From: Actinoplanes teichomyceticus ATCC 31121
Lineage (GTDB): Bacteria > Actinomycetota > Actinomycetes > Mycobacteriales > Micromonosporaceae
DNA length: 64,000 bases
Direction: 5' to 3'
NCBI RefSeq assembly: GCF_003711105.1
Contig: NZ_CP023865.1
Coordinates: forward strand, 7,733,001-7,797,000
The translations under genes and the position numbers were made by a program. This document shows, piece after piece, positions 24,135-53,154 of this stretch. Under the pieces are notes generated by a model. The model saw only the letters and a list, made by a program, of their open reading frames with translations, was not told the origin of the DNA and ran no database searches. How positions within the stretch are numbered: the first letter of the stretch is position 1; each line of letters opens with the position of its first letter.

Positions 24135-24377
24135 CTACGGCTGGCCGTCCGGCTTCTTCAGCATCCTGGCGACCGCGTCCACGGCGTCGTCGGTGGGCGA
24201 CGCGGCGGCGCGGTTCGCCTCCTGCAACTCGCGGTACACCTCCTCGCGGTGCACCTGCACGTCACGCGGGGCCTGGATGCCGAGCCGGATGACGTCGCCC
24301 CGGGCCTCCAGCACGGTGATCACCACGTCGTCGCCGATCATCACGCTCTCCCCGGCCCGCCTGGTCAGCACAAGCAT
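24135..24377 (-). CDS. csrA: carbon storage regulator CsrA
   Basis: CsrA binds GGA motifs in mRNA leaders and blocks translation, classically that of flagellin. The 80-residue protein has the canonical start MLVLTRRAGESVMIGDDV and the RNA-contacting VHREEVYREL segment. A longer acidic C-terminal extension than in E. coli follows. Its own leader carries three GGA motifs right before ATG 24377, including the ribosome site. It follows fliW, and the pair forms the FliW-CsrA-flagellin circuit with fliC 4 kb away. Confidence 0.95.
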   Translation of the reverse strand: MLVLTRRAGESVMIGDDVVITVLEARGDVIRLGIQAPRDVQVHREEVYRELQEANRAAASPTDDAVDAVARMLKKPDGQP

Positions 24378-24385
24378 CGACGCCC

Positions 24386-24395
24386 TCCTCCGTCC
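24386..24395 (-). promoter_or_regulatory. three GGA motifs in the csrA ribosome-binding region
   Basis: On the minus strand the leader reads GGACGGAGGA over 24395-24386, 8 bases before the csrA ATG. Three overlapping or adjacent GGA cores cover the ribosome site, the arrangement expected for CsrA autorepression. Confidence 0.45.
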
Positions 24396-24416
24396 ACGGA
24401 ACCGACAGCATGGCAA

Positions 24417-24448
24417 AGGCGCGGTCGCGACGGAACGCGACCGCGCCT
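24417..24448 (-). terminator. hairpin between fliW and csrA
   Basis: A perfect 13-bp stem (24417-24429 with 24436-24448) closes a 6-base loop right after the fliW stop. It can end or attenuate the flgN-to-fliW transcript before csrA. Confidence 0.7.
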
Positions 24449-24459
24449 GCGACGGAGGA

Positions 24460-24897
24460 TCAGAAGGCTCGATTCATGATGGCGCGCACCGGATAGCCCG
24501 ATCCGGTCAGCACCACCTGCTGGGCGCGCATGCTGTCCCGGTCCACCACGATCGGGGCGAGGAGGTTGGCCGTCGTCTCGTCCTGCCCCGCGGTGATGAC
24601 CGCCAGCAGCAGGACACGGTCCGGGTCCTTGGTGTTCAGGGCGGCGAACACGGCTTCGTCGATCTCCGGGGCGTACTCCGGGAAGAACGGCTCCGGCGGC
24701 GCGACCAGGAAACGCAGTTCCGGGTTGTCGATCGATGTGAGGGCGTAGAGCAGACCGTCGTCGTTGAGTCGCACCAGGACGAATTCCCGGTGTGCCGGAA
24801 ACCCCGGCATGGGCGTCGCCATCGTGATGGTCGGCAGGCCCAGCGACGGGTCGGTCATGGTGGCCTCGATCGGTCGGGACATGGTGCGAGTAGTCAT
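24460..24897 (-). CDS. fliW: flagellar assembly factor FliW
   Basis: FliW binds either flagellin or CsrA and so releases flagellin translation when the pool of free flagellin falls. The 145-residue protein has the family features: PGFPAHREFVLV, SIDNPELRFLVAPP and a C-terminal region with NLLAPIVVDRDSMRAQQVVL. ATG 24897 lies 2 bp after the flgL stop and next to a GAGGTGA site; an upstream GTG (24903) overlaps the stop and is possible. The flgL-fliW-csrA order matches other Gram-positive flagellar loci. Confidence 0.94.
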   Translation of the reverse strand: MTTRTMSRPIEATMTDPSLGLPTITMATPMPGFPAHREFVLVRLNDDGLLYALTSIDNPELRFLVAPPEPFFPEYAPEIDEAVFAALNTKDPDRVLLLAVITAGQDETTANLLAPIVVDRDSMRAQQVVLTGSGYPVRAIMNRAF

Positions 24898-24899
24898 GG

Positions 24900-25874
24900 T
24901 CACCTCAGGAAATCGATGAGCGAGGGCTGGATCACCTTGGCCGTGGCGGCCAGGGCGGCCTGATACGAGGTCTGCTGGAGCTGCAATTCCATGATCGCCT
25001 TGGGCAGGTCGACATCCTCGATATCGGACAGCTGCGACGACACGGACATCAAGCGATCCTCAGCGGACTGCTTCATCTGGGTAACCCGATTGTATCGGGC
25101 GCCTACGTCCGAAAGAGTGGATTTCAGGAGATCAGACGCTTTGTCGAGGTTCGTCAGCCCAGTGGCCAGAGCGTCCGAGTCGCCGGATCTCATGGCATCG
25201 ATGACATCGTCCAGCACCGTGAAGAGCTGCGCCGGATTGCGCACCCGATCGGCCTCCGCGACCGGGTTGCCGTCCGCGTCCACGTAGTTGCCGCTCGCAT
25301 CGACGAGGTAGTCCGTACCGAACGCCTCCGGGCCGCGCACATCGACGCGGACCTTGGCGTTCGGCCCGATCGCCCGCATCGTCTCGCCGGCTGGCTCGCC
25401 GATGTACCGGCCGGTGGCGTCGTAGGCCTCGTGGTCCGGCGTGGAACCGCCGAACACCGGCCGGTCCAGGTACCGGGAGTTGGCGAACTGGACCAGGTTG
25501 GCCTTGATCTGCTCCAGCTCGGCCGCCCGGGCCTTGTTCGCCTCCGAGGTGCCCGTCCCGCCCATGCTGCTGGCCTCCAGCGTGAGGTTGCGGGCCACGG
25601 TGACCAGCTCCTGCGAGTGCTGCAGGTTGTCCTGCACCACGCCGAGCCGGCCGGCCGCGTCGTCGGCGTTGGTGGAGTACCTCCTGTTGGCCCGCACCTC
25701 GCCGCGCAGCTGCAAAGCGGTGACCGTGCCGGTCGGCGAGTCCGACGGGCGGTTCAGCTGCTTGCCGCTGGAGATCTGGTCGGTGGCCTGCTGGCTGCGG
25801 TTGAGGTTGCGCTGCAGGCTGGCCATCACCCGGGTGCGCACGCTGCTCTCGGTGACCCTGGGGCTGCTGCTCAT
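24900..25874 (-). CDS. flgL: flagellar hook-filament junction protein FlgL (HAP3)
   Basis: FlgL forms the second junction ring between hook and filament. The 324-residue protein is flagellin-like at both ends. The N-terminal helix contains RNLNRSQQATDQISSGKQLNRPSDSPTG-type sequence (shown in part), and the C-terminal helix contains DLPKAIMELQLQQTSYQAAL and ends near SLIDFLR. The middle is short. ATG 25874 is 11 bp after the flgK stop. It is exported by the flagellar type III apparatus. Confidence 0.95.
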   Translation of the reverse strand: MSSSPRVTESSVRTRVMASLQRNLNRSQQATDQISSGKQLNRPSDSPTGTVTALQLRGEVRANRRYSTNADDAAGRLGVVQDNLQHSQELVTVARNLTLEASSMGGTGTSEANKARAAELEQIKANLVQFANSRYLDRPVFGGSTPDHEAYDATGRYIGEPAGETMRAIGPNAKVRVDVRGPEAFGTDYLVDASGNYVDADGNPVAEADRVRNPAQLFTVLDDVIDAMRSGDSDALATGLTNLDKASDLLKSTLSDVGARYNRVTQMKQSAEDRLMSVSSQLSDIEDVDLPKAIMELQLQQTSYQAALAATAKVIQPSLIDFLR

Positions 25875-27918: not shown

Positions 27919-27983
27919 GCGGTTTCCCCCAATCCGCATATATCCGGTTCGGCCGAAAAGCCGGAGAAATCTTCGGAGAATCC

Positions 27984-28011
27984 TCAGTGCCCGTCGGACG
28001 ACCGCCGAAGA
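27984..28011 (+). promoter_or_regulatory. candidate FliA/WhiG-type promoter of fliC
   Basis: TCAG at 27984-27987, a 16-base spacer and GCCGAAGA at 28004-28011 lie 66 bases before the fliC start. The spacer is one base longer than at flgB and fliJ. Confidence 0.5.
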
Positions 28012-28035
28012 GATGAGCGCAACACCACGGCTCAT

Positions 28036-28069
28036 GGACGGGCCGGTTCAAGACCCCAGTCAAGGAGGA
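28036..28069 (+). promoter_or_regulatory. GGA motifs in the fliC leader, candidate CsrA sites
   Basis: The leader has GGA at 28036-28038 and two more at 28064-28066 and 28067-28069 inside the AAGGAGGAA ribosome site. CsrA of Bacillus binds the flagellin leader in this way; csrA and fliW are 3-4 kb away in the same locus. Confidence 0.45.
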
Positions 28070-30841: not shown

Positions 30842-31216
30842 ATGACCGCGCCAAACCTGCGCAACCGCTATCTCGACGACTCGATCAGCACGGCTTCGCC
30901 GGCGAAGTTGCTGCTGATGCTCTACGACCGCCTGGTTCTCGACCTCATGCAGGGTGAGGAGGCGCTGCGGAACGGGAAGCGCGAGGAGGCCCACCAGCGG
31001 ATCACCCACGCCCAGGACATCATCCTGGAGCTGCGGACCACGCTCCACGTCGACGCCTGGGACGGCGCGCCGGGGCTGGCCAACCTGTACGGCTTCCTGC
31101 TCACCGAGCTGATCGGCGCGAACATCGCGCGCAGCCCGGAGCGGGTGGCCGCCTGCCGTGACCTGATCGAGCCGCTGCGCGACGCGTGGCGCGAGGCCGC
31201 CCTCGCAGCCGGGTGA
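30842..31216 (+). CDS. fliS: flagellin export chaperone FliS
   Basis: FliS binds the C-terminal helix of flagellin and prevents early polymerisation. The 124-residue four-helix protein has the family start (RNRYLDDSISTASPAKLLLM, LYDRLVLDLMQGEEAL) and usual length. ATG 30842 follows GGGGGAAAGAT. Its stop overlaps the next gene by 4 bp (GTGA), which implies coupling. Confidence 0.95.
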   Translation: MTAPNLRNRYLDDSISTASPAKLLLMLYDRLVLDLMQGEEALRNGKREEAHQRITHAQDIILELRTTLHVDAWDGAPGLANLYGFLLTELIGANIARSPERVAACRDLIEPLRDAWREAALAAG

Positions 31217-31545
31217 GCACCGGCATGGGCCAGGACTGGCGGGGCGCCTGGTCGGCGGCCCTCGACGAACTGGAGATGGACGTCGCGGCGGTCGAGGCCA
31301 TGCTCGCCGACGAGCACCGCCACGCCGAGACGCCCCCGGCCGACCTCTGGAAGCCGCCCACCGAACTGGGCGCGCTGCCGCTGGAGCTGCGGCCGCGTGC
31401 GGACGAGATCCTCACCCGGCAGCTGGCCGCGGCGGAGGAGATCGCCAGGCGGCTCACCGCGAACCGCCAGCAGTCGGCGATGACCGCCCGGATCGAGACC
31501 GGCGAGGCGGTCAAACGCCCGGTCTACCTCGACTGCGCCATGTGA
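31213..31545 (+). CDS. small helical protein in the FliT position
   Basis: The 110-residue protein follows fliS with a 4-bp overlap, the place where many bacteria carry fliT, a chaperone for FliD. It is predicted largely helical (WRGAWSAALDELEMDVAAVE, AMLADEHRHAE, DEILTRQLAAAEEIARRL), which fits a FliT-like coiled coil. No residue signature makes the family sure. GTG 31213 is fixed by the overlap and by the ribosome site inside fliS. A strong hairpin follows it at once. Confidence 0.65.
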   Translation: MSTGMGQDWRGAWSAALDELEMDVAAVEAMLADEHRHAETPPADLWKPPTELGALPLELRPRADEILTRQLAAAEEIARRLTANRQQSAMTARIETGEAVKRPVYLDCAM

Positions 31546-31552
31546 GCACGAA

Positions 31553-31593
31553 CGAACGTCCCGGATCCCCGCCCGTGGGGTCCGGGACGTTCG
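31553..31593 (+). terminator. terminator after the fliD-fliS unit
   Basis: A 17-bp stem with a single-base bulge (31553-31570 with 31577-31593) closes a 6-base loop. It directly precedes the TcrA box of the flgB operon and insulates the two units. Confidence 0.8.
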
Positions 31594-31596
31594 TGT

Positions 31597-31651
31597 GTGC
31601 AACCGCGCGGCAACCGTCTGACACTCAGCGGATCGTCGGGCACGCCGAACT
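31597..31651 (+). promoter_or_regulatory. perfect TcrA box with a FliA/WhiG-type promoter for the flgB operon
   Basis: GCAACCG-CGCG-GCAACCG fills 31599-31616. Eight bases later TCAG (31625-31628), a 15-base spacer and GCCGAACT (31644-31651) follow. The repeat equals the TcrA box that I recall from Actinoplanes missouriensis, nnGCA(A/C)CCG-n4-GCA(A/C)CCGn. The flgB start is 75 bp downstream of the -10. Confidence 0.75.
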
Positions 31652-31725
31652 GCATGGTACGAGCACGGATTGCTCAACCGAACAGCCATGGATCGGCGCC
31701 CAGACGGATCGACCAGGAGCTGCAA

Positions 31726-32073
31726 GTGTTCGACGACATCTCTTCGTCTGCACTGCGCGTCGCTGTCACCGGCCTGTCGGCCCGGCAGAACGCCATTGCC
31801 AACAACATCGCGAACGTCGAGACCCCGGGCTTCCGGGCCCGTAAGGTCAAGTTCGAGGAGGCGCTCCAGGGCGCCATCGCCCGTGGCCGGTCGCCCCTCG
31901 GTGTGAACCCGAGCGTGCAGACGTCGCTGGAGCCCACCCGTCTCAACGGCAACAACGTCAACCTCGACGAGGAGACGCTGTCGCACATCGACACCACGAT
32001 GCGCTACCAGCTCACCCTGCGGGCCATCGACAGCAAGTACGGTCTGCTGCGCGACGCCATCAAGGGAGCCTGA
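31726..32073 (+). CDS. flgB: flagellar proximal rod protein FlgB
   Basis: FlgB forms part of the proximal rod that crosses the peptidoglycan. The 115-residue protein has the rod signature LSARQNAIANNIANVETPGF and the C-terminal LDEETLSHIDTTMRYQLTL helix. GTG 31726 follows AGGAG at 7 bases; the frame is open from 31597 but that part overlaps the TcrA box and promoter. It opens the flgB-C-fliE-F-G-H-I operon. Confidence 0.95.
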   Translation: MFDDISSSALRVAVTGLSARQNAIANNIANVETPGFRARKVKFEEALQGAIARGRSPLGVNPSVQTSLEPTRLNGNNVNLDEETLSHIDTTMRYQLTLRAIDSKYGLLRDAIKGA

Positions 32074-45197: not shown

Positions 45198-45224
45198 TGT
45201 TCGGCGATCCGTCGCCATCACTGA
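45198..45224 (-). promoter_or_regulatory. candidate FliA-type promoter of flhA
   Basis: On the minus strand TCAG (45224-45221), 15 bases and GCCGAACA (45205-45198) match the flgB and fliJ promoters closely. The site lies in the flhB-flhA gap, 68 bases before the flhA start. No TcrA-like repeat is upstream. Confidence 0.6.
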
Positions 45225-45299
45225 GACCCTTGTGGCACCGCCACGCCCCGATCTTCCCCGGTAAGCGCCCGCGATGTGAGGAAATCTCCTGAATTCCGG

Positions 45300-53041: not shown

Positions 53042-53100
53042 GACAGTCCGTCCTTGGGTCGTCCTTGGCTGGCGAAGGCCGTCCGTGGCCCTCGCCTGTT

Positions 53101-53154
53101 ACTTCGGTCCGACCTCGGTTGCCGATGAGATCGGGCCGGTCGCGATCCGGGTGC
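53101..53154 (-). promoter_or_regulatory. TcrA box and FliA-type promoter of the flbD-mot-fli operon
   Basis: On the minus strand GCACCCG-GATC-GCGACCG (53154-53137) matches 13 of 14 positions of the TcrA box. After exactly 8 bp comes TCAT (53128-53125), 16 bases and ACCGAAGT (53108-53101). The geometry is that of the flgB promoter. The -10 is 60 bases before the flbD start. Confidence 0.65.

Follow-up and report, generated by a model that had tools for sequence, protein, structure and literature searches.

The window, the whole stretch of 64,000 nt to which all coordinates below refer, comes from a host genome that consists of a single contig of 8,287,152 bases. We identified flgB on the forward strand (31726..32073, with a GTG start at 31726) by its match to Pfam Flg_bb_rod, which bears out the name given to the gene in a preliminary description of this DNA. 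It heads an operon of genes in the same direction, flgB-flgC-fliE-fliF-fliG-fliH-fliI-fliJ-fliK, that reaches 41226 (Pfam assignments; the match for fliJ is weak). The Shine-Dalgarno (SD) sequence of flgB, AGGAG at 31715..31719, includes a GGA.

Upstream of flgB, the forward strand reads GCAACCG-CGCG-GCAACCG (31599-31616), the 7 bp TCTGACA, CTCA (31624-31627), a spacer of 16 nt (N16) and GCCGAA (31644-31649). The direct repeat forms the core of a TcrA-type box at 31597..31617. CTCA (31624..31627), 7 bp past the box core, and GCCGAA(CT) (31644..31651) are the predicted -35 and -10 elements of a FliA/WhiG-type promoter, and the predicted transcript start region, GGTAC at 31656..31660, is placed from the position of the -10 element. 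The preliminary description had divided the same bases into two GCAACCG units of 11-bp period, followed by 8 bp, TCAG, 15 bp and GCCGAACT. All of these are present as described, at 31599-31605 and 31610-31616, 31625-31628, and 31644-31651. It had also regarded the repeat as TcrA-type, and the match to the published box, nnGCA(A/C)CCG-n4-GCA(A/C)CCGn, is exact; binding of TcrA to this box activates its regulon (PMC12691653). The spacer of the promoter begins with GCGGATC (31628-31634, forward strand, directly after CTCA), which is kept in most flgB promoters of the genus.

Control of flagellar genes by TcrA and FliA is known in Actinoplanes missouriensis, where flagellar genes are said to be TcrA targets and flagellar promoters reportedly take the form CTCA(N15-17)GCCGAA. 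The composite of box and promoter at flgB is therefore not new in kind. The promoter fits this form exactly at flgB (CTCA-N16-GCCGAA) and at fliC (N17), whereas flbD of this genome has ACCGAA. The box shares the 21-bp direct repeat consensus, and the position upstream of a promoter, with the A. missouriensis TcrA regulon (PMC12691653). It differs in that it belongs to another species and is known from sequence, and in that its 7-bp distance to CTCA was measured over 67 genomes. Three sigma factors of the FliA family take part in forming sporangia, and between day 1 and day 3 the expression of 29 genes of the flagellar cluster increases 100-fold or more (PMC13293333, PMC11960193). The host genome encodes four genes that score 174.9-190.8 bits against the FliA/WhiG model, one above the family cut-off, and the next scores 119.8.

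An inverted repeat with 24-nt arms (31546-31569 and 31577-31600, 88% complementary) occupies 31546..31600 of the forward strand, and its right arm overlaps the first two bases of the TcrA-type box. It is probably the end of the fliD-fliS transcript. A terminator scan reported none at 31546..31600, where the T-run rule is unmet. Between fliS and the flgB promoter lies a gene for a 119-aa protein (31186-31545, forward strand), for which we found no Pfam match.

Composite promoters in the genome and among relatives

Each half of the combined pattern matches once in the window, compared with 0.02 matches expected from shuffles. Strict promoter matches (CTCA-N15-17-GCCGAA) number five in the window, where simulation gives 0.45. 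Genome-wide, the exact box pattern has 15 matches and its reversed control one, and for the majority of these 15 boxes a FliA-like promoter was not seen close downstream. With the spacing found at flgB, one match without mismatch was identified in the whole genome, and allowing up to three mismatches added one more (none for the reversed control). The preliminary description had proposed a genome scan with the combined pattern. When run, the scan returned flgB and flbD as the only sites with at most two mismatches; eight further matches have three mismatches, against five matches of the reversed control at three or fewer, and we make no claim for them.

The preliminary description had also considered the spacing between box and promoter to be fixed, and within the genus it is. 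We found flgB in 67/67 genomes searched from the genus and used the upstream DNA of all 67, scoring 100 combinations in each genome (box-to-CTCA gap of 0-19 by spacer of 14-18). A gap of 7 with a spacer of 16 was the best geometry in every one of the 67, with no mismatch to the composite in 16 genomes, one in 39, two in 10 and three in 2. The box described as perfect does lack mismatches here, but this is not special, given the 16 genomes that likewise have none. A stricter pattern search recovered the composite in 61/67 genomes; the G041 copy has one mismatch, in the box. In a profile of 62/67 genomes (five were dropped because the strict promoter pattern failed), the columns of the box, CTCA and GCCGAA are kept, and the linker between the half-sites varies, as does the mid-spacer.

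Outside the genus, 16 of the 67 genomes searched from other genera of the family have flgB. In the three genomes of group g10, the best geometry is again 7/16 (gap/spacer), with 2-3 mismatches. In group g13, it is 18/16 in three of the four genomes examined (G103, G105 and G107; 2-3 mismatches), a gap that equals 7 plus one 11-bp repeat unit. A gap of 7 is second best in G103 and G105, with four mismatches. Elsewhere in the family, the geometry is 9/15 in G329, 8/16 in G349 and a weak 7/16 in G351, and G326 has an exact box with tied geometries. By the same scoring, a clear composite upstream of flgB was not found in G101, G136, G314, G001, G327 or G343, where it is unclear or absent. At flgB loci outside the family, the best matches to the TcrA box are no better than those in shuffles. 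Within the genus the composite is constant, and part of the family shares it. In G103, G105 and G107 (loci L175, L177 and L181), GCAACCG-like units of 11-bp period lie one repeat unit further upstream than in Actinoplanes, and in G103 and G105 they build longer arrays upstream of flgB.

Across the family, the exact combined pattern has matches in 41/354 genomes. Many of these have the form GCAACCG-n4-GCACCCG. The match of this form at G000 4874219 lies in apparent coding sequence on the opposite strand, and we treat these matches as coding conservation. A composite-like site with three mismatches (L027, G000 1544579-1544629) lies where the DNA shows no clear coding frame.

A second copy of the design precedes flbD on the reverse strand (53103..53154), with a box GCACCCG-GATC-GCGACCG (53137-53154), 7 bp, CTCA (53126-53129), N17 and ACCGAA (53103-53108). 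The flbD region was taken from 37 genomes, and flbD itself is present on 30 of those stretches. Using a pattern widened to fit the flbD composite, 7/17 was the best geometry in 28 of the 30 relatives. By this widened pattern, 19 have no mismatch, four have one, two have two (at most two in all for 25/30) and five have 4-8. The flbD promoter spacer holds a further GCAACCG unit, seen in 27/30 stretches by a loose definition. The fliC promoter (CTCA-N17-GCCGAA, 27983..28009, forward strand) has no TcrA-type box in the 60 bp upstream of it in this genome.

Predicted GGA-loop hairpins in flagellar leaders

Sequence conservation in the profile of 62/67 genus genomes runs on past the -10 element of flgB. 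The conserved stretch fits two hairpins with GGA in the loop, HP1, GAGC(R)ANGGAN(Y)GCTC, and HP2, GCCANGGANNGGC. In this genome, HP1 is GAGC-ACGGATT-GCTC (31661..31675, forward strand) and HP2 is GCC-ATGGATC-GGC, with a 3-bp stem (31685..31697, forward strand). A third ANGGA motif (ACGGA, 31704..31708, forward strand) is present but is not kept in all genomes. This conserved RNA leader, directly downstream of the composite, was absent from the preliminary description and is the larger and less expected result.

Both hairpins match by pattern in 67/67 genus genomes. The HP2 pattern allows G or C at its first base; G072 has C, and the pair is broken there. The distance from GGA to GGA is 21-26 nt (22 in 39 of the 67 genomes and 23 in 16), and the 67 leaders hold 203 ANGGA motifs, compared with 29.9 in shuffles. 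The HP1 loop is 7 nt in this genome and 6 nt in a 16-nt form of HP1. Of the 40 genus genomes with this 16-nt form, 24 have A-U as the inner pair and 16 have G-C, with no mismatch; on a tree made from the flgB region, this takes at least five changes. The outer pair of HP2 is canonical in only 29/67 genus genomes, yet in 33/33 loci of Microbacteriaceae and allied groups. Most pairs of the flgB leader are invariant, and pairs changed on both sides are no more frequent than in shuffles (486 of 500 shuffles are as high).

Single-sequence folding failed as proof of the hairpins at flgB and fliC. RNAfold gives the isolated flgB leader a structure other than HP1 and HP2 (z -0.40) and folds the fliC leader otherwise (z +0.31); the flbD leader folds as proposed (z -2.45). 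A count of hairpins with ANGGAN loops in the window was also unconvincing as support (4/224, compared with 42/4688 for eleven control loops, no clear enrichment). Between 20000 and 60000 of the window, no match to Rfam reached the curated score.

Within the class, the twin-hairpin leader was found in Micromonosporaceae, Microbacteriaceae and further families. Among the 16 other members of the Micromonosporaceae, HP1 was found by pattern in 15 and both hairpins in 13. The leader has been lost in G105 (L177), where the predicted start codon lies about a dozen bases past the -10 element and the hairpins are missing. A covariance model trained only on 54 sequences from within the family, the genus included, was run on unseen loci. 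At flgB loci from other families of the class, it identified the leader in 22 of 25 genomes (E ≤0.0046), with seven weaker matches (E 0.027-0.9). It also found the leader at 33/33 named flgB loci (E ≤1.6e-6), with six weak matches elsewhere. These named loci are mostly from Microbacterium, with Nesterenkonia, Glaciibacter, Cryobacterium and Intrasporangium, and are close relatives rather than 33 independent cases. By pattern, HP1 and HP2 occur together at 19/25 of the other-family loci and at all 33 further loci; HP1 is missing from 5 of the 25. A plain hairpin scan gave 22/23 for the other families, against 1.7% expected, and 33/33 for the named loci, against 2/66 coding stretches. In the host genome itself, the model scores the flgB leader at 59.7 bits and the next candidate at 21.9 (150 of 13993 first-look candidates were scored).

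GGA-loop hairpins were also identified in the leaders of fliC (CGGCTC-ATGGAC-GGGCCG, 28028..28045, forward strand) and flbD (CGAGGGCC-ACGGAC-GGCCTTCG, 53073..53094, reverse strand). In all 64 of the 67 genus genomes in which fliC could be reached, a stem of at least 6 bp closes an ANGGA loop. The loop has 6 nt in 51/64, in which all six stem positions pair, and 7-8 nt in the other 13. Over 33 distinct sequences, four of the six pairs vary on one side and one flips from C-G to G-C. The commonest stem includes a U-G pair, which is workable in the sense RNA only. Nine other genomes of the family were compared at fliC. In six of them (G094, G098, G349, G326, G314 and G103, the last in one of its two copies) a stem of 6-8 bp closes an ANGGAN loop, and five of these stems differ from that of the genus; in G096, G351 and G107 the pairing is imperfect. 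In other families of the class, the fliC hairpin occurs at 15 of 24 usable loci from 20 genomes, against 0.96% expected; four of the 28 loci had no clear start and were left out. On visual inspection, eight of the nine loci that miss it retain the loop and have a single stem mismatch each. For flbD, an ANGGA hairpin of at least 3 bp is present in 29/30 stretches, 27 of which have a 6-nt loop and the inner four pairs.

Two similar structures were observed elsewhere in the window. One lies between flhB and flhA (45202-45225, reverse strand), where a strict CTCA-GCCGAA match overlaps a TGGCG-ACGGAT-CGCCG hairpin that has a weak score with the leader model (E 0.02). Between fliW and csrA, a perfect 8-bp inverted repeat, CGGTCGCG/CGCGACCG (24422-24443), encloses an ANGGA loop on the strand opposite to these genes.

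CsrA, FliW and proposed control of the flgB operon

Genes for CsrA (24135..24416, PF02599, E 2.9e-25) and FliW (24460..24903, PF02623, E 1.9e-31) lie next to each other on the reverse strand, inside the flagellar cluster, and both have PDB matches. CsrA residues 2-74 align with the CsrA chain of 5dmb, in which the other chain is FliW. The protein carries the RNA-binding residues L4 and R44 (numbering by our own count), which are the residues highlighted in CsrA (PMC7652899). It also has a C-terminal extension, which, together with the presence of fliW, is as expected for a CsrA system antagonized by FliW. In a sample of 76 genomes (nine of the 67 from the genus and 67 others), csrA is present in 25/25 genomes with flgB and in 0/51 without it. 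RsmE/CsrA is known to recognize ANGGAN as a hexaloop, and in most selected CsrA ligands the contiguous pairs number four or fewer (PMC7652899). Given the csrA and fliW genes in the cluster, L4 and R44, the co-occurrence of csrA with flgB, this known site and the likeness to the Campylobacter jejuni flaA leader described below, CsrA is the likeliest candidate ligand of the leader.

We propose, at a probability of roughly 70%, that the flgB upstream region is a two-layer control region of an early flagellar operon, with a TcrA-type/FliA-type layer in the DNA and a CsrA/FliW layer in the RNA. A TcrA-type response regulator would bind the direct repeat, which lies 7 bp before the -35 element, and activate RNA polymerase carrying a FliA/WhiG-family sigma factor at CTCA-N16-GCCGAA. 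The preliminary description had suggested that regulator and sigma factor are needed jointly, which is a hypothesis. The transcript would start a few bases upstream of HP1. A CsrA dimer could then bind the GGA loops of HP1 and HP2, which lie 22-23 nt apart in most genus genomes, and the GGA in the flgB SD is perhaps a further CsrA site. GGA within an SD is common in any case, which weakens this GGA as evidence for CsrA. CsrA bound in this way would repress the translation of rod and export genes until FliW releases it.

Three other explanations were weighed. It is most improbable that the arrangement of box and promoter arose by chance or inheritance and plays no part in controlling flgB. A loose match to the composite (G000 4874219) does recur in many genus genomes in apparent coding sequence, so such matches can last for other reasons. 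At flgB, however, the columns of the box, CTCA and GCCGAA are kept while the linker and mid-spacer vary (62/67 genomes), and the spacing is unchanged in 67/67. A more serious possibility, which we still consider unlikely, is that the DNA layer alone matters and the leader is a DNA operator (a GAGC-N-GCTC palindrome) or an initially transcribed sequence constrained by the promoter. The near-invariance of HP1 just past the promoter, the thin covariation at flgB and the RNAfold structure of the isolated leader, which lacks HP1 and HP2, would all be expected in that case. However, the ANGGA loop is not palindromic and is conserved as well as the stem. It recurs in HP2 and, on different stems, in the flbD and fliC leaders. 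Moreover, the U-G pair of the commonest fliC stem works in sense RNA only, and the leader is present in families where the TcrA box does not stand out.

The remaining alternative accepts CsrA as the ligand and reverses the sign of its effect. CsrA bound near the 5' end would shield the mRNA of the flgB operon from RNase and so activate it, as described for Escherichia coli flhDC. HP1 lies a few bases from the predicted 5' end, and flhDC has, according to a review, a pair of CsrA sites near its 5' end. Against this, HP1 is followed by HP2 and by the SD-proximal GGA, and fliC shows the hairpin-plus-SD design of repressed flagellin leaders. We infer that repression by CsrA is likelier than protection of the 5' end, and activation seems improbable, if slightly less so than an operator or promoter constraint in the DNA alone.

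The putative two-layer region can be compared with established CsrA targets. In Bacillus subtilis, where csrA and fliW also lie within the flagellar cluster, CsrA occludes the SD of hag and FliW relieves the occlusion, according to a review. The fliC leader here resembles hag in having a GGA hairpin and an SD GGA; unlike that system, the rod/export (flgB) and flbD operons also carry hairpins, as judged from sequence. The C. jejuni flaA leader, like that of flgB, has two ANGGA stem-loops, with the GGA motifs 21 nt apart, and its stem-loops are backed by compensatory changes (PMC4894983). In flaA, however, flagellin is the target and the RBS is covered by the second loop, and flgB appears in the C. 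jejuni CsrA pull-down table of that source at 1.6x, not enriched (PMC4894983). The E. coli flhDC leader, also described in a review, belongs to an early flagellar mRNA, as that of flgB does, and has a pair of CsrA sites close to its 5' end, where flgB has two putative ones. In E. coli, CsrA stabilizes a regulator operon, whereas flgB heads a structural one.

We read the leader as a probable CsrA/FliW-controlled element common to the class. The open-licence literature matches listed contain no description of CsrA targets in Actinobacteria, and none in print, among those listed, of a conserved flgB leader or of GGA hairpins on three actinobacterial flagellar operons. The fixed spacing of box and promoter offers a clean system for the meeting of a response regulator with sigma-28-type polymerase.

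In A. missouriensis, a single promoter type reportedly drives all flagellar genes simultaneously. If so, something else must order assembly, and a conserved leader of CsrA/FliW type in front of the first structural operon is a direct candidate. Tentatively, and at somewhat less than an even chance, the twin-hairpin leader of flgB may be an old RNA element of the class that puts rod, export and motor assembly, and not flagellin alone, under CsrA/FliW translational control. In zoospore-forming species, whose flagellar operons would be turned on jointly by TcrA and FliA, the RNA layer, and not transcription, would then determine when and in what order flagella are assembled within the sporangium. 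If true, this would extend CsrA control of flagella to the Actinobacteria and to rod and export genes.
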